In this document: positions 5,233-25,519 of the stretch, piece after piece
How positions within the stretch are numbered: position 1 is the stretch's first letter
Layout: each line of letters begins with the position of its first letter
DNA from: a virus
Virus record (IMG/VR): IMGVR_UViG_3300031749_000026
Location: 1 to 30,799 of that record
Direction: 5' to 3' (one strand)
DNA: 30,799 nt
Notes under the pieces: model-generated
Databases searched by the model: none
What the model was told of the DNA's origin: nothing
Seen by the model: only the letters and a program-made list of their open reading frames with translations
Translations under genes and position numbers: made by a program

Positions 5233-6372
5233 ATGCCAGTCATTATTGTTGAACATCCAGACACAACTAATTCAGAACAAACTTATTTAACTTCGGCTGC
5301 TTCAGCAGGCGCTACTTCTTTGTCAGTGAAAAATACACAAGGTTTTTCCGCTAATGATTTTATTGTTGTTGGCGGAATTGGGAATGAAAACTCGGAAATT
5401 ACCAAAATCAATTCTATCTCAGGCAACAACACTTTAGTGGTTGACGCTTTAAAGTTTGATCACGGAGTGGATACACCAGTTACCTATATCAAATATAACC
5501 AGGTTAGAATTTATAGAGCCTCTTCAAAAACTGGAACTTATTCTTTAATTCTTGTTGGCATAAACATAGAAGTTGATTATCCTGATGGCACTCGCTATGA
5601 CGACACCACAGGAACATCTTCATCTTGGTATAAGGCTGCTTATTATAACTCGCTTACTGGCGTTCAATCCGATTTATCTGATCCTTTCCCCGCTACAGGC
5701 ATTACTGATTACTGTTTAAGAGGACTTCAAGATGCGGTGATTACTTTAGCCAACGATCCTTTTGAGCAGAGAATTAGAAGAGATGATATTACTCGCTGGA
5801 TTAATGAAATCTATCGTTCTGTTCAACATAAAGTGAGACAGAAAAATCTGGCTTACAGTTTAAAATACTCTGGCGAACTTCCTTTTACTCAAGGTCAAGC
5901 AGAATATGACCTACCATCAGATTTTGTTCAACTCTATAAAATAGAAGTAGCAATGGATGGTATTAGTTATCGCAACCCTACACCGCTTGATATGCGAGAC
6001 GTAGAACCGACAAGGGTGTTTACACCAGCAGAACCATATTTCTACTTCATTGAAAATAAAATTGGTTTTAAACCTACTCCCAATTCTGGAACTTACAAAC
6101 TTTGGTATTATTACACTCCTACAACCTTATCTTCCGATGCTGATGAGTTACTTTTTCCTTACAATCAATATCCTGAAATTTTTGTCAACTATGCGATGTT
6201 CCGTTTTTGTCAAATTCACAAACCAGAAAGAGTGGCAGAGTATAAGGCTTTGGTAGATGAAGCGGTTAATCGGATGCTAACCGACTTGGCTGAAAGGCAA
6301 ATTCACAAGCCAGATTTTGTGCATATTACCAGCAGTGAATATTATGAAAGTTTGTTAGATCAAGGCTTTTAA
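5233..6372 (+). CDS. Head-tail adaptor protein (P22 gp4/T7 gp11-like position)
   Basis: 379 residues. Residues ~1-150 are beta-rich with an Ig- or fibronectin-like appearance (YLTSAASAGATSLSVKNTQG; later YNQVRIYRASSKTGTY). Residues ~160-379 match the pattern of podovirus tail adaptors: a helix with IRRDDITRWINEIYRSVQHK, then YDLPSDFVQLYKIEV, then YFYFIENKIGFKPTPNSGTY and KLWYYYTPTTL, and a C-terminal helix spanning YAMFRFCQIHKPERVAEYKA. Such proteins attach under the portal and receive the tail hub. The next gene, a beta-propeller, is the expected partner. The adaptor call is strong; the N-terminal domain seems an addition compared with shorter adaptors. Confidence 0.75.
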   Translation: MPVIIVEHPDTTNSEQTYLTSAASAGATSLSVKNTQGFSANDFIVVGGIGNENSEITKINSISGNNTLVVDALKFDHGVDTPVTYIKYNQVRIYRASSKTGTYSLILVGINIEVDYPDGTRYDDTTGTSSSWYKAAYYNSLTGVQSDLSDPFPATGITDYCLRGLQDAVITLANDPFEQRIRRDDITRWINEIYRSVQHKVRQKNLAYSLKYSGELPFTQGQAEYDLPSDFVQLYKIEVAMDGISYRNPTPLDMRDVEPTRVFTPAEPYFYFIENKIGFKPTPNSGTYKLWYYYTPTTLSSDADELLFPYNQYPEIFVNYAMFRFCQIHKPERVAEYKALVDEAVNRMLTDLAERQIHKPDFVHITSSEYYESLLDQGF

Positions 6373-6380
6373 GGAGGCGT

Positions 6381-7838
6381 ATGGCTATCGTTGTTTTAAA
6401 CACCTTTGAGGGGATAAACAGATTAGCCGCTGATGATGTAACCAAGCCTTCTGAATTAAGATTGGCAATAAATTGCGATAGTGAGATTTTGGGGGCGAAA
6501 AGAAAAAGACCAGGCTATGCGAAGTTTTTAGACAATCCTGATAATTCTCCTATTCAAGGACTTTTTTATTGGATAAAAGCGGATGGGACAAAACTTCTTT
6601 TTAGAGTTTCAAATGGCAAGGTCTATAAATATCAGTTTGGTAGTGGTGCTTCTACCTGGACTTTAACTTCCAAAACTGGACTTTCAACGACAGAGAAAAT
6701 GTCTTTCAGTTTGCTAAGCGGTAACTTATTTTTTTCAAATGGCGTAGACAATATGTTTTATACATCTGATGGTTCAACTTTTACTGATGTATCAACTGGC
6801 ACTCCGCCAAAACCAAGATTTTTAAGAACTTTTCAAGGAAGAATTTATGGAGCAGGTTCAACATCAGAAGTTGGAACCCAAACTTCTGGGACTGGTCCGA
6901 GTTCTATTTATTGGTCAGCCGTTAATGATGGAACTGATTGGACAATAGATTTAACCAATCCTGCTAAAGCAGGTTGGAAATACATTGACCCAGATGAGAA
7001 TGGTAGAATAACAGGTTTGGGTAAGATTTTGGATAGGTTGATTACTTTTAAACAAGGAGCAGTGTATAAATATGATGGGTCAACCTTAACTGACTTAAAC
7101 TATGTTCCGACTACTTCTCATTTATCAATTAGCAGTTACAAGGATTATATTTTCTTTATCAATTATGATGGTATCTGGGGATACGCTGGTTCAACGCCAG
7201 AACTTTTTTCCAAACCATTAAGAGATTTTGTCAACAACATTTCAGGCAATAACTTCATAGAAGCAGCAGGGATTGTCTACAACAAACAATACTTCTGCTC
7301 GGTGGGAGATGTAACCACTGATGATGGTGAAACTTATCCTAATTGTGTTTTAGTTTTAGATTTTGATAACTCAATGTGGTATGTTCATTCTTTTGCTCAC
7401 AAACCCGTTGCTTGGACGACGGCGATAGACGAAAATAACAACTTCAAATTGTATTTTGGCGATAGTAATGGTCAGTGTTATCTTTGGAATTCAGGCACAA
7501 GCGATGATGGAAATCCAATCCAAATGGTGATGGAAACAAAAAACTTTGATGAAGGTTATCCACAAACTGATAAAAAGTATTCTAAAATGTATGTAGAAGC
7601 GAAACCGCATAATGGTTTGAAAGTCTATTACTCGGTTGATGATGGAGAGTGGCGATTGGCAGGAGAATGCGTTAATACCCTAACCAGGTTTTACTTTGAC
7701 CCTGATGTAACCAATTCTTTTCATCAGAGAATTAAGTTTAGATTGGTGGAGAGCGGAACGAATATTCAGCCAGTTGTGAGAAAAATTATCTATCACTATG
7801 ATATAAGTGGAGGTGAAGCGGGTAAAGCAAGGAGGTAA
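6381..7838 (+). CDS. Beta-propeller tail hub/nozzle protein (P22 gp10-like)
   Basis: 485 residues with repeated beta-propeller blades: DGTKLLFRVSNGKVYKYQFG, LLSGNLFFSNGVDNMFYTSD, RLITFKQGAVYKYDGS, DYIFFINYDGIWGY and NFKLYFGDSNGQCYLWNS. The N-terminus (LNTFEGINRLAADDVTKPSE) and the phrase ILGAKRKRPGYAKF match the phage stabilisation/tail-nozzle family that closes the portal channel in podoviruses. The C-terminal ~80 residues (KMYVEAKPHNGLKVYYSVDD) look like a beta-sandwich. It sits directly after the adaptor, with AAGGAGG at 6371-6377. This is a core virion component. Confidence 0.8.
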   Translation: MAIVVLNTFEGINRLAADDVTKPSELRLAINCDSEILGAKRKRPGYAKFLDNPDNSPIQGLFYWIKADGTKLLFRVSNGKVYKYQFGSGASTWTLTSKTGLSTTEKMSFSLLSGNLFFSNGVDNMFYTSDGSTFTDVSTGTPPKPRFLRTFQGRIYGAGSTSEVGTQTSGTGPSSIYWSAVNDGTDWTIDLTNPAKAGWKYIDPDENGRITGLGKILDRLITFKQGAVYKYDGSTLTDLNYVPTTSHLSISSYKDYIFFINYDGIWGYAGSTPELFSKPLRDFVNNISGNNFIEAAGIVYNKQYFCSVGDVTTDDGETYPNCVLVLDFDNSMWYVHSFAHKPVAWTTAIDENNNFKLYFGDSNGQCYLWNSGTSDDGNPIQMVMETKNFDEGYPQTDKKYSKMYVEAKPHNGLKVYYSVDDGEWRLAGECVNTLTRFYFDPDVTNSFHQRIKFRLVESGTNIQPVVRKIIYHYDISGGEAGKARR

Positions 7839-15425: not shown

Positions 15426-15700
15426 TTTTTTATCATCTCCAAAAATAATTTTAAATCACAAATAAAAAGAGGTCTCTTTCTGTCCTGTTTTATTACCAGA
15501 AAATCTTTGCCTTCTAACCACTCATATATTCTTTTGAAGTCGCCGTGTCGCACCTTACACTCACCACGCATCCCTTCTATTTCAACATCATAACCTTCAC
15601 CCGCTCCGCTCAACCATTGCCTTCTCGCTTTTAAGCCATATTGCTTGGCAAGATTAACAACAAGGTTTTCTAAGTTGTAGCCTTTGCGTCTGGTTTTCAT
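15422..15700 (-). CDS. PDDEXK nuclease, Holliday-junction-resolvase-like
   Basis: 92 residues. The order RRKGYNLENLVVNLAKQYG, then SGAGEGYDVEIEGMRGECKV gives a candidate active site E11, D38, E47 and K49, the E-D-ExK pattern of archaeal Hjc-type resolvases and other PDDEXK nucleases. A resolvase would process branched replication or packaging intermediates. It overlaps its neighbours by 4 bp on each side (15422-15425 and 15697-15700). The length is short even for Hjc (about 130 residues), but all catalytic elements seem present. It could also be a VRR-type or other small phage nuclease. Confidence 0.65.
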   Translation of the reverse strand: MKTRRKGYNLENLVVNLAKQYGLKARRQWLSGAGEGYDVEIEGMRGECKVRHGDFKRIYEWLEGKDFLVIKQDRKRPLFICDLKLFLEMIKK

Positions 15701-16387
15701 TCTTCTCCTAATGGTAATGGACTTGGTATTTTCTCCAATCTTCTTCTACCTACCTCACAATACTCGGGACTTATTTCAATCATAATATAGTTTCTGCCCA
15801 ACTTTTTAGCGACAACTGCGGTGGTGCAACTTCCCGCAAAGGGGTCAAGGACAATATCTCCTTTATTTGTAAGATAATCTATCCATACCGTCAGGGGTTT
15901 TTCTGGTTTTTGAGTGGGGTGATATCGTGGATTTTGTGGGATAGATGCTAATATATAATCTGTTGTCCCAAATGATAATTCTTGCTTAACTTTTGTGAAC
16001 CATTCTACAGATTTCATAAAATCTACTTTTCTTCCCCGTGGAACTGGATTACTTTTTATCCAAAACAAAGGGCTTCTTCCTTTCATCCCTAATTTTTCTA
16101 AAAATTCCCATACATAACTGATTTTTTTCTTATCAATGTTTATAAGGTTTTAGTGCTCTTACGCATTCTTTTAACCACTTTTGACACCATCTTAAGTAAT
16201 CTTCTTCACTCTTCCATTGTTTATCCCACTCGCCAAAATCTAAATTTATGTCATTCCCTTTATATTTTAAATTAGATGCTCTGTGAATTTCTATTTAATC
16301 ATAAAAGGCGGATCGGTAAGAACTAAGTCAATTGTTCGGTACTTCAAAACCCCTAACGCATCCCCGCACAAAATCTTGTTTTTAATC
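15697..16387 (-). pseudogene. DNA adenine/cytosine-N4 methyltransferase, broken by two frame changes
   Basis: Three reading-frame pieces together make one beta-class DNA methyltransferase. Piece 1 (to 16291) has LCGDALGVL and LVLTDPPFMIK, motif IV with the catalytic DPPF, then a stop. Piece 2 (~16290-16140) reads EIHRASNLKYKGND and FGEWDKQWKSEEDYLRWC in another frame, ending KPYKH and two stops. Piece 3 (~16139-15697) reads ISYVWEFLEKLGMKGRSP, then HPTQKPEKPLT and the SAM-binding motif DPFAGSCTT with KKLGRNYIMIEI. A segment of about 20-25 residues between ALKP and YVWEF seems missing. Intact enzymes modify N6-adenine or N4-cytosine. No function is expected unless the breaks are assembly errors. 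Confidence 0.7.
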
Positions 16388-16509
16388 TCCTCTATCCTAT
16401 ACAACCTATCCCCCAAAAATAACTTTAACACAAAGAATACCCCATAAATAACCAAAACCCACAACACTACCAACATAACCAACGCCTCTAAGCAAGACCA
16501 GAACCGCAT
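16291..16509 (-). CDS. Membrane segment fused to methyltransferase N-terminus (72 aa)
   Basis: The ATG at 16509 has a strong site (CAGGAGGTGGTAAG) lying in the end of the preceding gene. Residues 1-40 (MRFWSCLEALVMLVVLWVLV onward) are one long membrane segment followed by LKLFLGDRLYRIEEIKNKI. The last ~25 residues are the start of a DNA methyltransferase (LCGDALGVLKYRTIDLVLTD then PPFMIK). Either a small membrane gene was fused by deletion to the start of the methyltransferase, or the methyltransferase originally began near the ILCGDAL segment and this frame arose from decay. The transmembrane part may still be expressed with the lysis cassette. Confidence 0.55.
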   Translation of the reverse strand: MRFWSCLEALVMLVVLWVLVIYGVFFVLKLFLGDRLYRIEEIKNKILCGDALGVLKYRTIDLVLTDPPFMIK

Positions 16510-16510
16510 C

Positions 16511-16690
16511 TTACCACCTCCTGTTGTCCCGATAAACCAAGATTGAGAAGACCAGATAGAAGCCGAACAGCAATAGGGCAATGACACCATCCTGAACTTC
16601 TTGAACGGTTTCAGAAGTGAAAATTAACATCAGGCTTCCAAGCAATCCGAGCGATGAAAGGGCGATTGAGACGATTGAGAAGGTTTTCAT
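16511..16690 (-). CDS. Small two-segment membrane protein, holin-like (59 aa)
   Basis: The ATG at 16690 has AAAGGAGAAAA upstream. Two hydrophobic stretches are present: residues ~4-25 (FSIVSIALSSLGLLGSLMLI) and ~37-52 (GVIALLLFGFYLVFSILVY), ending in a basic tail (RDNRRW). The intervening acidic loop is TSETVQEVQD. Size and hairpin topology match class II holins. It lies right after the transglycosylase-like gene and ends 1 base before the next ATG. It is probably a lysis-cassette component; other membrane roles are possible. Confidence 0.6.
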   Translation of the reverse strand: MKTFSIVSIALSSLGLLGSLMLIFTSETVQEVQDGVIALLLFGFYLVFSILVYRDNRRW

Positions 16691-17273: not shown

Positions 17274-17942
17274 TTATTCTTTGTGTTTACCTTTCTCATC
17301 CCAGTAGGGTAGACCTATTATACAGCCACTACCTAACTTATAACCTGAACCAAACCTACAAAAATTTTCAAACATACAACTATTACCGAAATTACAAGAA
17401 GAACCAAATGAACAGCCGTAATCAAACTTACAGGAAGAGTCAAATACACATCCATCACCAAAAAAGCATTGGTGACCGAACCTACAACCAAAACCAAATC
17501 TGCAGGAAGGACCAAATCTGCAAAGAGGTTTAAACCTACAGTCAGAACCAAACTTACACTTATTATCAAACTTACAATCTTCACCAAAATCACACCCAGA
17601 ACCAAACTCGCAAGCAAAATCAAACTTACACCCAGAACCAAACCTACAATCAGAACCAAACTCACAATAAAAGCCAAACTCACACTCATTACCAAATTCA
17701 CAATCAGGACCAAAAATGCAGTTAATGAAAATACAATAATCACCAAACCTGCTTCCAGAAGCAAACTTCTTGTTTACAAATATCTTCCTTTCTGGTTTAT
17801 CAGTAACCAAAATCTCCTCTACTTCTTCCCAATCCTCTATAAACTCATAACCAGCCGTTGCTACCTTATCACTCGGTGTAGGCTTTAACTCTTCTACTGG
17901 TTCACCTTCCAAGATTGTTCCGCTTTTAATTCTAAATTTCAT
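17274..17942 (-). CDS. Cysteine-rich hexapeptide-repeat protein (222 aa)
   Basis: I do not recognise a named family. The ATG at 17942 has a strong site (GGAAAGGAGAAAG) and is preferred over an upstream in-frame start at 17990. Residues ~1-65 are a non-repeat cap (MKFRIKSGTILEGEPVEELK; then EDWEEVEEILVTDKPERK). After two degenerate rungs and a 5-residue unit, 21 consecutive six-residue units of pattern C-x-F-(G/D)-x-x run in perfect register (e.g. CEFGSD, CRFGSG, CKFDFA), ending YKLGSG CIIG. A period of 6 fits a triangular left-handed beta-helix better than the 5-residue pentapeptide fold. Stacked cysteine and phenylalanine ladders are expected. A DNA-mimic, metal-binding or surface role is possible but unproven. 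Confidence 0.75.
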   Translation of the reverse strand: MKFRIKSGTILEGEPVEELKPTPSDKVATAGYEFIEDWEEVEEILVTDKPERKIFVNKKFASGSRFGDYCIFINCIFGPDCEFGNECEFGFYCEFGSDCRFGSGCKFDFACEFGSGCDFGEDCKFDNKCKFGSDCRFKPLCRFGPSCRFGFGCRFGHQCFFGDGCVFDSSCKFDYGCSFGSSCNFGNSCMFENFCRFGSGYKLGSGCIIGLPYWDEKGKHKE

Positions 17943-17955
17943 CTTTCTCCTTTCC

Positions 17956-18105
17956 CTACAAGACTTATCCTTGTAGGTACCTGACAGCAAGGTAGTGTTA
18001 AGGAGGGGCTTTTTGTTTTTTTTGCTACCTTGCTGTCAGGTAGAGCGGAGGATTTATCCTCCGCACAAGACTGATGGGCAGGAGGAAGCCTCCCATCAGT
18101 CTTGT
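17956..18105 (-). promoter_or_regulatory. Four consecutive hairpins in the leader of the hexapeptide-repeat gene
   Basis: In leftward RNA order: H1 14-bp stem 18092-18105/18065-18078; H2 8-bp stem GCGGAGGA/TCCTCCGC 18057-18064/18045-18052 with 4-base loop; H3 perfect 18-bp stem 18025-18042/17978-17995 with 29-base loop; H4 7-bp stem 17970-17976/17956-17962 just before the ribosome site at 17946-17953. The H3 loop contains CCCCTCCTTAA on the RNA strand, complementary to the AAAGGAGA ribosome site. H1 may also end transcription of the 18106 gene, but lacks a following T-run. Confidence 0.7.
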
Positions 18106-20228: not shown

Positions 20229-20552
20229 TTAAGAATTGTATTCTTCTGCGATTTCTTGTATTATATTATCCAACTTGATGGCTTGGCCTGTTGTTTGACG
20301 ACCCCAAACCTTAAAATCTAAATATTCAAAAACTATTTCACCTCGATTTTCAAGTTTATCAGCAAGCCAATCGCTTACACTCCACCATTCGTATATTTCG
20401 GGGTATTCTCCTGTTTCTTTGTCTTCTTTATAATTTTTCGCTTCAAATAGTATTTCAGGATTTTCTTCAAATGCTTTTTCCATTGTTAAATTGATGTTTT
20501 GAATAATATGTTTTTCTACTAATTTTTCCGCTTTTAATTGTTTTTTTGTCAT
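20229..20552 (-). CDS. Conserved phage hypothetical protein (WGRxTTGQ motif, 107 aa)
   Basis: The ATG at 20552 has GGAGG at 20560-20564. Residues ~50-100 contain the pattern EWWSVSDWLADKLENRGEIV, then FKVWGRQTTGQAIKLDNIIQ and EIAEEYNS, which I recognise as a recurrent small phage protein of unknown function found in many tailed phages. The N-terminal 40 residues are a charged helix (KKQLKAEKLVEKHIIQNI). No membrane segment. It is enclosed by a 25-base inverted repeat. Function not known; it may act in early takeover because of its leftward-unit position. Confidence 0.75.
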   Translation of the reverse strand: MTKKQLKAEKLVEKHIIQNINLTMEKAFEENPEILFEAKNYKEDKETGEYPEIYEWWSVSDWLADKLENRGEIVFEYLDFKVWGRQTTGQAIKLDNIIQEIAEEYNS

Positions 20553-20606
20553 TTTTTTCCTCCAATCTCAAGCCAAGAAATTAAATTTTGATTTTCTCGG
20601 CTGGTT

Positions 20607-20631
20607 TCTCGGCTTGCTGGTGCCATCCTTA
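20607..20631. repeat. 25-base inverted repeat, right arm
   Basis: TCTCGGCTTGCTGGTGCCAT plus CCTTA pairs with 20196-20220 (23 of 25 bases). It is followed by a hairpin CCTTAAAA/TTTTAAGG (20627-20634/20641-20648). On the leftward RNA, bases 20607-20617 and the segment near 20571-20581 form an 11-bp stem in which one G-U wobble replaces a mismatch seen on the other strand, supporting a leftward RNA. Confidence 0.7.
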
Positions 20632-20649
20632 AAATTTAATTTTTAAGGT

Positions 20650-20742
20650 TCACCTGTAAACTACTGAATAGCTTTTGAATCTTTTGTCTTTTAAATAATG
20701 TTTGACCTTCACCAGGTAAAATCTTTTAACCTTCTTTTTCAT
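20650..20742 (-). CDS. Tiny basic peptide (30 aa), first leftward gene
   Basis: The ATG at 20742 has AAAGGGGAAAA upstream and lies ~90 bases from the inferred start of the 20866 promoter transcript. The 30 residues are highly basic (11 lysines or arginines), with beta-strand-like alternation (KKKVKRFYLVKVKHYL; FKSYSVVYR). No family. It may be a genuine early peptide or a leader ORF; base composition and ribosome site support translation. Confidence 0.5.
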   Translation of the reverse strand: MKKKVKRFYLVKVKHYLKDKRFKSYSVVYR

Positions 20743-20837
20743 TTTTCCCCTTTAATGCTTCGGGATGTGCGGGCTGGGTCTTTTGCGTTTGTATTGCGCA
20801 CCCTGCTCCTGCTCCATCCTTCAGCATATCTACCAAT

Positions 20838-20866
20838 ATACTAACATATTGTCTGTCATTTGTCAA
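20838..20866 (-). promoter_or_regulatory. Leftward sigma70 promoter (P-left 1)
   Basis: Read leftward: -35 TTGACA at 20866-20861, 17-base spacer, -10 TAGTAT at 20843-20838. It reads the leader at 20743-20830 and the leftward unit from 20742. It is a near copy of the promoter at 19194-19166, including ATATTGG after the -10. Confidence 0.8.
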
Positions 20867-20884
20867 GTCCTTTACTCTTGCTAT

Positions 20885-21340
20885 TTATCCACAATTTTAA
20901 GCATGGAAAAGAATAGCAAGGAGGAAGTTTTGTTTTAAATAGTGAATAAAAGATAAAAGCGGGCTTTTTTAATAAGAGCGGAAACACGGGCTCGGGAGGG
21001 GGGTCGGTTTCACTCTCGCACTTATCCACAACTTATCCACACCTCTTTGGGCGATGTATGTATACCTCTTCGTGTTCCGTGTTCCGTGTTCCGTGCTCGG
21101 TCTCGGGCTCGGAGAAGTAGAGAGGGTATGACCCGCCGCCCGAGATTAAGAGGGGGATATACCCCTCTCGGATAAGGTACCTCTCGGGCATTTCCCACTC
21201 CCCCTCTCGGATAAGGTTCCCTTCCAGCATTCCACTCCCCTCTCGGATAATCCGTTCCCCACTCCCGAGTATTATATCCGAGTATATTTATATACGAGCC
21301 CGTATATATACCCGTAATATATACCCGTATACACTTACCC
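20885..21340. other. Candidate replication origin: DnaA boxes, iterons, AT-rich 13-mers
   Basis: Three perfect DnaA boxes TTATCCACA lie at 20885-20893, 21022-21030 and 21033-21041, the last two 11 bases apart. A 7-base tandem CGTGTTC (four units, last CGTGCTC) spans 21071-21098. Three exact 14-base direct repeats CCCCTCTCGGATAA start at 21162, 21201 and 21237. An AT-rich stretch follows, with units led by CCCGTATATATA at 21299, 21311 and 21324 (12-13 bases) and related CCGAGTAT units at 21265 and 21279. No convincing gene is present. The layout is that of an initiator-plus-DnaA origin, and the O-like gene starts at 21571. Confidence 0.75.
21162..21250. repeat. Three 14-base iteron-like direct repeats
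   Basis: CCCCTCTCGGATAA occurs exactly at 21162-21175, 21201-21214 and 21237-21250, with 39- and 36-base periods (roughly 3.5 helical turns). A partial copy (CCTCTCGGGCA) lies at ~21180. The reverse complement begins TTATCCGA, sharing the first six bases with a DnaA box. Likely binding sites for a phage initiator. Confidence 0.8.
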
Positions 21341-21383
21341 CCCTATTATCCCCCCTAAAGTGAATAACCGAGTTTTAAAAAAA

Positions 21384-21403
21384 GCCCGTCTTTTTCAACG
21401 GGC
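21384..21403 (-). terminator. Leftward-facing intrinsic terminator
   Basis: GCCCGT (21384-21389) pairs with ACGGGC (21398-21403). Read leftward, the stem is followed by seven T residues (from 21383), the form of a rho-independent terminator. It would stop transcription entering the origin from the right, insulating it from antisense RNA. Confidence 0.65.
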
Positions 21404-21415
21404 GGTTGATTACAG

Positions 21416-21431
21416 ATAAGAGCACTCTTAT
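21416..21431. promoter_or_regulatory. Dyad ATAAGAG-CA-CTCTTAT, possible operator
   Basis: A 7-base inverted repeat with a 2-base centre sits 12 bases upstream of the -35 of the rightward promoter. Size and place suit a dimeric regulator such as the HTH protein at 18931-19146, but no binding specificity can be derived. Confidence 0.45.
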
Positions 21432-21443
21432 GTTACAATGGGC

Positions 21444-21472
21444 TTGACAAAAAGTAAATAGTGTGGTATAAT
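21444..21472 (+). promoter_or_regulatory. Consensus rightward promoter (P-right)
   Basis: -35 TTGACA at 21444-21449, 17-base spacer, -10 TATAAT at 21467-21472: a perfect sigma70 consensus. It is bracketed by direct repeats ACAATGGGC at 21435-21443 and 21479-21487 and by an inverted GGGCT/AGCCC. It drives the replication and packaging genes through the attenuator at 21501-21556. Confidence 0.9.
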
Positions 21473-21500
21473 GAGCCCACAATGGGCAATAAAGCAATAT

Positions 21501-21556
21501 GACTCGGCTGAATTCCCCGCCCCATCTCTTAGCCGAGTCAGGCGGGGTTTTCATTT
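21501..21556 (+). promoter_or_regulatory. Transcription attenuator: two mutually exclusive hairpins
   Basis: Stem A is GACTCGGCT (21501-21509) with AGCCGAGTC (21531-21539). Stem B is CCCCGCC (21515-21521) with GGCGGGG (21541-21547), followed at once by TTTTCATTT, an intrinsic terminator form. Stem B's left arm lies in the loop of A, and A's right arm lies in the loop of B. Only 1 base separates the right arms, so both cannot form together. The ribosome site AAAGGAGG follows at 21559. Confidence 0.75.
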
Positions 21557-21570
21557 AGAAAGGAGGCAAA

Positions 21571-22341
21571 ATGGCAATACCAAACACAACCCCAACACCA
21601 AACATCATCTTTAATGATTTAATGGCAAAAATGACAGACACAGAACTCAGAATCGTGATGGCAGTTACCAGAGCAACGCTGGGGTGGGAAATAGATCCAG
21701 AAACGAAAATGAGAAAGAAAGAAGATTGGCTCTCTTATTATCAGTTGAAAAAAATTACAGGTAGAGGATATACAGCCCTGGCGCAAGGAATTGAAAGTTG
21801 TATCAAAAAAGGATGGATAGAGGCTCGGGATAAAGATGGAAATCTATTAGATACCAAAAATAAACGAATAGGAAAAAAGATATATTACAGATTAGGAAAA
21901 GAGATTCTATTAAAAAACGACGGAGTAGTTAAAGAATCTCAACCTCTACAGAAAGTGAAGAGGTTAGACCCAACCTCTTCGGATTCCGTAATTACGGAAA
22001 GTGAAGCATACAAAAGAAATACTATACAAAATAAAAAAACTACCGACGAATCAAATTCGTCGGGTCAAAAAGAAAAAAAATCTTTTAGAGAAACGAAATA
22101 TCCTGTAGAGTGGTATGACCAGGTTCTAAAAGAGTATTGCGAATTAAAAAACCTCGCCCCTAAAGGTAATGAATGGAATCTTTTAAAGAGGGAGGTCAAA
22201 TTGATGTTTCAAAATGGACGCACCCCAGAGGAGATTATCAAGGCGATGAGAAGAATGGCTTACATTGCAGAGAAACATAAATTAAGTTGGAAGTTGGGGA
22301 CAATTAGAGTTAGGATGCCCGAACTTCTAGCAGGGAGGTAA
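21571..22341 (+). CDS. Replication initiator, lambda O-like winged-helix protein
   Basis: 256 residues. Residues ~7-90 match the N-terminal winged-helix domain of lambda O-like phage replication proteins: NTTPTPNIIFNDLMAKMTDT, then LRIVMAVTRATLGW, KKEDWLSYYQLKKITGRGYT and the wing with GWIEARDKDG. The middle (~125-160) is a polar linker. The C-terminal ~90 residues (WNLLKREVKLMFQNGRTPEE) resemble a DnaD/helicase-loader-like helical domain. It would bind the origin and recruit helicase. The gene lies just downstream of the candidate origin, with AAAGGAGG at 21559-21566. No helicase gene is in the window, so the host helicase may be used. Confidence 0.75.
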   Translation: MAIPNTTPTPNIIFNDLMAKMTDTELRIVMAVTRATLGWEIDPETKMRKKEDWLSYYQLKKITGRGYTALAQGIESCIKKGWIEARDKDGNLLDTKNKRIGKKIYYRLGKEILLKNDGVVKESQPLQKVKRLDPTSSDSVITESEAYKRNTIQNKKTTDESNSSGQKEKKSFRETKYPVEWYDQVLKEYCELKNLAPKGNEWNLLKREVKLMFQNGRTPEEIIKAMRRMAYIAEKHKLSWKLGTIRVRMPELLAGR

Positions 22342-22764: not shown

Positions 22765-23205
22765 ATGGACTTCTCTAAAATTCCACAAAGTTTGTTAGAT
22801 ACTCTTACCCTAAATGAAAAGTTGTGGCTGAAATATTATCTTGAGACGAGAAATAAGACAGAGGCAGCAGTTAGGGCTTTTGGAATAGAAGACAGAATAA
22901 AAGCCAGTCGGGTCGGAGAGGCGATGTCTCGGAGGAAGAGGGTAAGGCGAGTTTTGAATTACCATCTTATTGAGAATGAGAATTTGGCTGAGATGAAGTT
23001 GAAAGAGGCTCTGATAGAAGAGATTTTTGAGAAAGGCGCAACCAATGCCCCTGAAAGGCAGGTTAGAATCAAGGCGATTGAACTTTTGATGAAGATGAAA
23101 GGGATTTTACCTACTGGTAAAACCAAATCAAAAGAGAAAGAAGAAAGTTGGAAGGATTCTCTTGAGATAAGGATGGACGATGCCCCGAGTGATCATTCCA
23201 CATGA
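22765..23205 (+). CDS. terS: Terminase small subunit-like protein
   Basis: 146 residues. Residues ~14-70 match the DNA-binding HTH pattern of small terminases: LTLNEKLWLKYYLETRNKTE, AAVRAFG and RVGEAMSRRKRVRRVL. A helical oligomerisation region (ENLAEMKLKEALIEEIFEKG) and a charged C-terminus follow. It would recognise phage DNA and feed it to TerL. It overlaps TerL by 26 bp, the normal terS-terL order. The ribosome site upstream is weak, so coupling to 22343 is likely. Confidence 0.75.
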   Translation: MDFSKIPQSLLDTLTLNEKLWLKYYLETRNKTEAAVRAFGIEDRIKASRVGEAMSRRKRVRRVLNYHLIENENLAEMKLKEALIEEIFEKGATNAPERQVRIKAIELLMKMKGILPTGKTKSKEKEESWKDSLEIRMDDAPSDHST

Positions 23206-25519
23206 ATATCAAAAGCGTGTTTTACTTTCTAAAAAGCGATTTGTCGTTGCAATAGCAGGTATTCAAGGTGGTAAAACTCTTTGTGGTGTTTTGTGGTTAA
23301 TTCAAGAAATTAAGAAAAATCCCAGAGGCACTTTTTTGGTTGGCGCTCCCTCTTTTAAAATTTTAAATCAGTCCACCTTGGAAAAGATTTTTGAATTGAT
23401 GCCAGAAGGAGTTTGGGGTTCGTATAACAAGATGGAGCAGGTTTATCGTCTTAAAAGTGGAGGGAAAATCTTTTTTCGAAGTTTGGAATCGCCAGATAGC
23501 ATTGAAGGAATGACTGCCCATGCTGCCTGGTTAGACGAAGCGGGTCAGATGAAATATCGAGCTTGGGTTAATGTTTTGAGCCGAGTTTCCGCCACTAATG
23601 GACGAGTTTTAATCACAACCTCTCCTTACTGTTATGACGAGAAAACAGAAATTTATACAAGGAATGGTTGGAAGAAGTTTGGTGAGTTGACTGATGATGA
23701 TGAGGTTTTTGCTTGTAATGAGAATGGAGAAGGTTGGTTTGAGAAACCTCAAGAGATTGTTTGGCAAAGATATAAAGGCAAGATGTTTCATTTTAAGGGA
23801 CACGCTATAGATTTGTTGGTCACTCCTAATCATCGCATTTTGTATAAAAACTCTAACAGATTTTATATCAAAACTGCGGAACATTTTTTTAAACTGAAAA
23901 ACAGATATTTATCAATTCCTAAAGCCGTATTTCCAAAAATTCAAGAACAGGAGTTTTTTGTCTTGCCTCCTGTTGAAAATAAATGTCGCATATCAAAACC
24001 AATAAAAATCAATATGAAAGATTGGCTGGCTTTTTTGGGATGGTTTTTGTCAGAAGGTGGGATTAGAAAAAAAAGAAATCAATATCAAGTATATATTTCT
24101 CAAAAAGAGGATGAGAAGTGGGAAATTCTCAAGTCAGATTTAGAAAAACTGCCTTTTAAGTTTAGTTATAATAAAAAATCAGGTTTATTCCTTTGCTCTA
24201 ATAAACAACTTTGGAGTTATCTCAAAAAATTGGGGAACAAATACACCAAATATATCCCCAATGAATTTAAGTTTGTTGGGAAAAATAATTTGATGGTTTT
24301 GATAGATAGGATGATTTTGGGAGATGGTTCTTATAGAAAGAATGGTAGAAAGGGATTTTCTTATTATACAGTCTCTAAAAGACTAGCCGAGGATTTTCAA
24401 GAGGTCTGTATGCTTTGTGGTATTCCTACTAAAATTTCCGAACGCAAACAAGCGGATTCTTGTATCCAAGGTAGGATAATTAAGGCAACAATGTTTCATA
24501 TCACAGAGAGAGCAAGGAAACGGGCGATGGTTAAAGAACGAAGGATTGTTGATTATGATGGTTATATCGGTTGTGTGGCTGTGTCTACAGGATTGATTTT
24601 AGTAAGGCGTAATGGAGAAGAATGTATTAGTGGAAATACTGTCAACTGGCTGTATAAACAGATTTATCAGAAAGTGAAAAACAAAGAGTTGGGTTATGAA
24701 AACTTTGAGATCGTTGAATGGGAAAGTATTCACAATCCCTACTTTCCTAAAGAAAATTACGAACACGCCAGGATAGTTTTACCCTTGTCCGAGTTTGAAA
24801 GGAAATACAAGGGAATGTTTCGTAGAATGCAAGGACTGGTTTATGAAGATATTTTTGATGAGCAGGGTAATATCAGAAATGTCGTTTCAGATGTTCCCAA
24901 GTTTCAAAAAGTAATTTGCGGAATTGACTGGGGATACCGAGATCCAACAGCGATTGCTTTTTTGGGAATTACGGAGAATGGACAGGTTTATCTTTTTGAC
25001 GAGGTCTATAAGAGCGGTTTGACCATCCTTGATGTCATTTCAATTTTGAAGGAGAAGGTTTTGGAAAATAGAGTTGGTTTTGTATACGCTGGTAGAGATC
25101 AACCAGGCTATATTGACGAGTTGAATCTCAAGGGCATTCCTACTATGGCTGCTAACAATGAAATCTTTTTTGGGATTGGAAGAGTGCGGGCTTTAATTCG
25201 GATGGGTCGTTTTTTTATCCACCGAAGATGTATTAATGCTCTTGAAGAATTTACATTGTATGTTTACAAAGAAAGTGATAAAATGGTAGAAGAACCAGCG
25301 GATGAAAATAATCATATGATGGATGCAATCAGATATGCCATTGCTTCACACCCCGAGTTTATGCAAATTGAAAATGAAGGGAAAGTTTATTCCGCCGACC
25401 AAAAAACCAATGAATTTTGGAATGAAGTGAAACAAGACATTGAAAAGAGTTATCAAAGATTAAAGTTTGGGGATTATGATGAAGAAGATTATTGGAATAT
25501 GATACAAGAGGTAATATGA
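23180..25519 (+). CDS. terL: Terminase large subunit interrupted by an intein
   Basis: 779 residues, of which 443 remain after removal of the intein (151-486), a normal TerL size. The ATPase has Walker A AGIQGGKT (26-33), Walker B AAWLDE (115-120) and coupling motif TTSP (146-149), with the intein inserted two residues later. The nuclease is RNase-H-like with D583 (GIDWGYRDPTA), D640 (AGRDQPG) and D715 (ENNHMMDAIRYAI). TerL drives DNA into the procapsid through the portal and cuts at the end. Splicing restores SPY-TVNWLYKQ. The start is set by overlap with TerS and GGATAAGG-like bases. Its stop overlaps the next ATG (ATGA). Confidence 0.9.
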   Translation: MPRVIIPHEYQKRVLLSKKRFVVAIAGIQGGKTLCGVLWLIQEIKKNPRGTFLVGAPSFKILNQSTLEKIFELMPEGVWGSYNKMEQVYRLKSGGKIFFRSLESPDSIEGMTAHAAWLDEAGQMKYRAWVNVLSRVSATNGRVLITTSPYCYDEKTEIYTRNGWKKFGELTDDDEVFACNENGEGWFEKPQEIVWQRYKGKMFHFKGHAIDLLVTPNHRILYKNSNRFYIKTAEHFFKLKNRYLSIPKAVFPKIQEQEFFVLPPVENKCRISKPIKINMKDWLAFLGWFLSEGGIRKKRNQYQVYISQKEDEKWEILKSDLEKLPFKFSYNKKSGLFLCSNKQLWSYLKKLGNKYTKYIPNEFKFVGKNNLMVLIDRMILGDGSYRKNGRKGFSYYTVSKRLAEDFQEVCMLCGIPTKISERKQADSCIQGRIIKATMFHITERARKRAMVKERRIVDYDGYIGCVAVSTGLILVRRNGEECISGNTVNWLYKQIYQKVKNKELGYENFEIVEWESIHNPYFPKENYEHARIVLPLSEFERKYKGMFRRMQGLVYEDIFDEQGNIRNVVSDVPKFQKVICGIDWGYRDPTAIAFLGITENGQVYLFDEVYKSGLTILDVISILKEKVLENRVGFVYAGRDQPGYIDELNLKGIPTMAANNEIFFGIGRVRALIRMGRFFIHRRCINALEEFTLYVYKESDKMVEEPADENNHMMDAIRYAIASHPEFMQIENEGKVYSADQKTNEFWNEVKQDIEKSYQRLKFGDYDEEDYWNMIQEVI
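23630..24637 (+). mobile_element. Intein with LAGLIDADG homing endonuclease in TerL (336 aa)
   Basis: It starts with C151 (CYDEKTEIYTRNGWKKFGEL, block A), has block B TPNH at 215-218 (H218), two DOD endonuclease motifs LAFLGWFLSEGG (283-294) and LIDRMILGDGS (374-384) with acidic residues E292 and D382, and a block F/G end VRRNGEECISGN (residues 475-486) followed by T487. The terminal N486 and +1 Thr are canonical, but the penultimate residue is Gly rather than His. The endonuclease probably targets the intein-free terL codons for the TTSP motif, a conserved site. Confidence 0.9.

Follow-up and report, generated by a model that had tools for sequence, protein, structure and literature searches.

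The origin of phage lambda lies in the middle of its O gene (lambda annotation), and DnaA acting at ori-lambda helps to activate that origin through transcription (PMC8203912). In the plasmids RK2, P1 and F, origins bring together DnaA boxes, repeats and an AT-rich stretch (PMC4980987). Both arrangements bear on a locus in the viral contig that we analyzed here over its full 30,799 bases (the window), which has no end repeats and contains terminase, portal and structural genes. A sequence-only reading had proposed a composite phage origin at 20885-21340, used by host DnaA together with the phage's own initiator. We find that the features are real, that the origin interpretation is supported in part and that nothing at the locus is categorically new. 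For the stretch itself, a control region is likelier than an origin of a new type, and replication more probably would start inside the neighboring gene for a lambda O-like initiator.

No close cultured relative of this phage was found, the best match of its portal protein being only 21% identical. Genes run leftward from about 14.0 to 20.6 kb and rightward from 21571, and no gene was found in 20553-21570. A 65-residue open reading frame within this interval (21033-21230, minus strand) was rejected as a gene, as it is made of the repeats described below and is not gene-like. Two strong promoters in the region face apart. The rightward promoter of the O-like gene (21444-21472, plus strand) is perfect at 12/12 positions, with the form TTGACA-17-TATAAT and an extended -10 TG. 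The leftward early promoter (20838-20866, minus strand), TTGACA-17-TAGTAT with an extended -10 TG, is kept in the one related contig as TTGACA-17-TATTAT (positions 5677-5705 there). Because shuffles gave no fewer promoter-like matches in total than the stretch itself, we place the weight on the quality of these two, the perfect score of one and the conservation of the other. Whatever else it may do, 20550-21570 most likely serves an environmental tailed phage as its divergent early control region. The GC-skew check that had been suggested placed the cumulative G-C minimum of the window at 21609, but this point coincides with the switch in gene direction and so favors neither the intergenic nor the in-gene origin candidate strongly.

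Several RNA-level features accompany these promoters. The leader of the leftward transcript (20745-20830, minus strand) contains a stable long hairpin (z -2.8), and about 80 nt of it are identical in the related contig; the leader may act as a regulatory RNA. An intrinsic terminator of leftward transcription lies at 21384-21403 (minus strand; fold z -2.8). Within the O-like gene's leader (21500-21553, plus strand), a hairpin formed by TGACTCGGCT and AGCCGAGTCA crosses a CCCCGCC/GGCGGGG hairpin that is followed by TTTT; the two hairpins would be mutually exclusive and resemble a transcription attenuator, their putative function. Searching Rfam returned no family above threshold. G-quadruplexes were absent from this region of the window and several were present in the related contig, so they are not a common feature. 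We also considered a mobile element between 24-base inverted arms at 20952 and 21373 and rejected it, as the right arm is part of the terminator and is not kept in the relative.

The three perfect DnaA boxes (TTATCCACA, plus strand) are where they had been reported, one at 20885-20893 and the others as a tandem pair at 21022-21041, with starts at 21022 and 21033. Dinucleotide shuffles of 20560-21570 held 0.009 boxes on average, and none of 1,000 held three. A fourth perfect box is found far off, at 7556. The tandem pair is itself an 11-base duplication. With 11 bases between starts, the pair would be suited to cooperative binding of DnaA, beyond what a mere promoter site requires, and a DnaA-binding site next to the O-like initiator gene can fairly be predicted. 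Chance alone would hardly place three perfect boxes within 160 bases, and this observation counts against a replication start inside the O-like gene. Should DnaA prove to bind here, the phage would be one more virus that enlists the initiator of its host to direct early transcription or replication.

Three exact 14-base repeats at roughly 37-base spacing had also been described, and CCCCTCTCGGATAA indeed occurs at 21162, 21201 and 21237, a count reached in 0/1,000 shuffles of the same kilobase. This 14-mer forms the best-conserved core of a tandem unit of 36-39 bases present in three copies (21162-21275, plus strand), and its spacing of 39 and then 36 bases shows no regular helical phasing. 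The remaining repeats were somewhat overstated. The 7-base tandem CGTGTTC (21071-21098, plus strand), read as fourfold, has three exact units and one with a mismatch, and the supposed three AT-rich repeats of 12-13 bases comprise two exact 13-base copies of ATATATACCCGTA (21304-21329, plus strand; starts 21304 and 21317) and a third that was generously counted (2.5 copies by TRF). The remark that the reverse strand of the 14-mer begins with half a DnaA box, TTATCC, does not hold as independent evidence, since this six-base resemblance has been copied by the tandem unit. Tandem duplication thus means that several of these features count one type of event repeatedly. The 14-mers, 7-mers and 13-mers are probably all products of such duplication in a low-complexity tract that changes quickly in number and sequence of repeats; the 6-mer complexity of the tract is among the lowest in the window. 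A hexamer common to the 7-mers and an in-gene palindrome, TTCCGT, was rejected as too short.

Searches beyond the window added little. The 14-mer alone gave 58 scattered matches in viral contigs, each the only one in its contig, and does not form an array shared among them. A hexamer-array pattern was dropped as a search key for viral contigs because it was unspecific, and distant DNA searches with the region gave no match among phage and plasmid records. In bacterial and archaeal genomes, the repeat-unit pattern matched once, in a Methanomicrobiaceae MAG. As the match falls in a coding region resembling a P-type ATPase, we consider it a chance occurrence and draw no link to a host.

In a composite origin, DnaA would occupy the boxes, the O-like protein would bind the 14-mers and the 13-mers would open. 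The numbers of boxes and 14-mers, both beyond chance, speak for this arrangement, as does its resemblance to RK2 oriV, P1 oriR and F ori2, in which boxes, direct repeats and an AT-rich stretch lie, as here, in about 450 bases beside an initiator gene (PMC4980987). Unlike those of iteron plasmids, however, the repeat units of the window are 36-39 bases long, irregularly spaced and not kept in the related contig, and the initiator is O-like by PHROG, with no Rep family matched. Several TTATCCACA boxes, two of them in tandem 11 bases apart, are also reminiscent of bacterial oriC, but here only one box is conserved, the AT-rich 13-mers come in two copies with no clear DUE and the replicon is a phage with its own initiator. 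In duplex stability the 13-mer stretch ranks at the 2.8th percentile of the window, and it melts less easily than A-rich stretches inside the O-like gene, which also holds the stronger origin candidate. The parts of the proposed origin are present, but a better candidate exists nearby and their conservation mostly fails, as described next, leaving the composite origin possible but doubtful.

The sole related contig that we found, L060 together with its other pieces, is IMGVR_UViG_3300031463_000029, spans 25,258 bases and comes from the Yellowstone spring LCB019; no further relatives were found. The phage group is thus one without a cultured relative, and its one known relative is from a hot spring. 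Over most of its length, L060 is about 90% identical to the window. Positions 20644-20995 are kept at 89%, including the leftward promoter and the box at 20885 (5724 in L060), the only box retained. Past 20995 L060 diverges, with an array of about 310 bases and period 6 (69% of bases match at a distance of six) at the place of the 7-mers; the tandem box pair, 7-mers and 13-mers are absent, and there are two diverged copies of the 36-39-base unit. Conservation of the repeat set in related contigs, proposed as a check on the origin, has mostly failed, with one of three boxes and two diverged units kept in a single relative. The O-like protein was not found in a search of the whole of L060; the flanking DNA is kept, and a structured stretch (6505-6900 in L060) replaces the O-like gene together with most of the gene that follows it. 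This stretch is non-coding, folds with a z of -4.25 and belongs to no Rfam family. L060 may be a special case, one relative is thin evidence, and another initiator may lie outside the L060 fragment. For the composite origin, the retained box and the adjoining initiator gene of the window weigh on one side, and the loss of the rest, O-like gene included, on the other.

The same comparison bears on whether the tract has any replication role at all. It could be a fast-changing low-complexity sequence whose boxes are duplicates and may only titrate DnaA, in line with its low 6-mer complexity, the period-6 array in L060, copy numbers that vary between the relatives and the duplication that made the box pair. 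The left box and its surroundings do not fit, since some 350 bases kept at about 89% argue that at least this part has a function, and we consider a tract without a replication role very unlikely.

The O-like gene itself (21571-22341, plus strand) encodes a predicted replication initiator of 256 residues. The assignment stands by PHROG (phrog_678, E 4.5e-11, and four further O-like PHROGs), but the Pfam match, PF04492, is below the cut-off (E 0.002), and NCBIfam gave no match. No close relative of the protein was found in viral or genome contigs, and among isolates only remote O proteins were. Five inverted repeats lie within 150 bases of the gene (21941-22086), including AACCTCT...AGAGGTT, GAAGAGGTT-6-AACCTCTTC, TTCCGTAATTACGGAA and CCGACGAAT-3-ATTCGTCGG; they encode an apparent low-complexity linker (residues ~123-170) after the predicted DNA-binding domain. 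The cluster at 21941-22063 is a candidate for a lambda-type origin core. Inverted-repeat clustering of this degree was reached in 2 of 3,000 synonymous codon shuffles, a figure to be read as a rank and not as a clean probability because we settled on the cluster score only once the palindromes had been noticed by eye. Ranking across the whole window and a gene-by-gene control are fairer tests: the four-repeat core has the top cluster score in the 30.8 kb, above the intergenic region, and among the 17 window genes tested the O-like gene alone had 0/150 shuffles reaching its value. Directly left of the cluster, at 21839-21938, are the 100 bp with the lowest stability in the window, a candidate unwinding element, and a second A-rich stretch of low stability (22002-22042, 0.9th percentile) lies between the inverted repeats. 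The top-ranking cluster and the adjacent stability minimum make the inside of the O-like gene the better origin candidate. Two of the in-gene inverted repeats could instead be minus-strand terminators.

As at ori-lambda, an O-like initiator is encoded behind a rightward promoter, and interrupted palindromes and A-rich DNA lie in the middle of its gene. Unlike lambda, with its four iterons and AT-rich tract, the window has inverted repeats of differing sequence in place of four matching iterons. Short direct repeats in the O-like gene were as numerous in 495 of 3,000 shuffles, which is not significant, compared to 0 of 500 for lambda; that the repeats are inverted and not clean direct iterons counts against an in-gene start. 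The lambda cluster is seen by direct repeats and that of the window by inverted ones, making the parallel one of place and kind and not of exact form, and the window protein is only remotely similar to that of lambda. In-gene clusters of inverted or direct repeats are also present in the O genes of lambda, Acinetobacter phage MD-2021a, Pasteurella phage Pmp13 and Salmonella phage SEN34. A longer cyanophage replication gene had none in its first 900 bases. A perfect DnaA box was not found in the fetched stretch around any compared O locus, and the upstream boxes and repeat array set the window apart from these lambdoid loci.

We favor, by a modest preference, a model in which 20885-21340 belongs to a divergent control region and replication initiates inside the O-like gene, with DnaA at most an accessory. 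The rightward promoter would make the O-like initiator, which would bind the inverted repeats within its own gene (21941-22063). The neighboring A-rich DNA would then melt and the host helicase would be loaded there, as in lambda, with transcription through the O-like gene helping. DnaA bound upstream might tune transcription or DNA shape, as at lambda pR. The locus illustrates how genuine repeats may be taken for an origin while a stronger candidate sits a few hundred bases away in the initiator gene.

A more active part for DnaA can also be envisaged, in which a lambda-type core in the O-like gene initiates and the upstream boxes form a required enhancer that feeds in host DnaA. Boxes and in-gene cluster each exceed chance, and DnaA's promotion of transcriptional activation at ori-lambda (PMC8203912) offers a precedent. 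The tandem pair, however, is absent from L060; some 900 bases separate it from the in-gene cluster, and the rightward promoter is about 400 bases downstream of it. Such a two-part origin seems unlikely to us. It would tie phage replication to the host's own initiation control, and a lambda-type origin helped by DnaA would be moderately interesting.

Three genes outside the region also drew our attention. In the terminase large subunit (23180-25519; 7405-9756 in L060), an intein-like insert lies between ...TTSPY and TVNWL... and is matched by profiles of proteins that often bear inteins. The DNA methyltransferase gene at 15697-16590 (minus strand) is split into two frames and is an intact single frame in L060 (854-1630). 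Finally, the gene at 17274-17990 (minus strand) encodes a protein of repeated C-x-FG units, and these repeats differ between the two phages.
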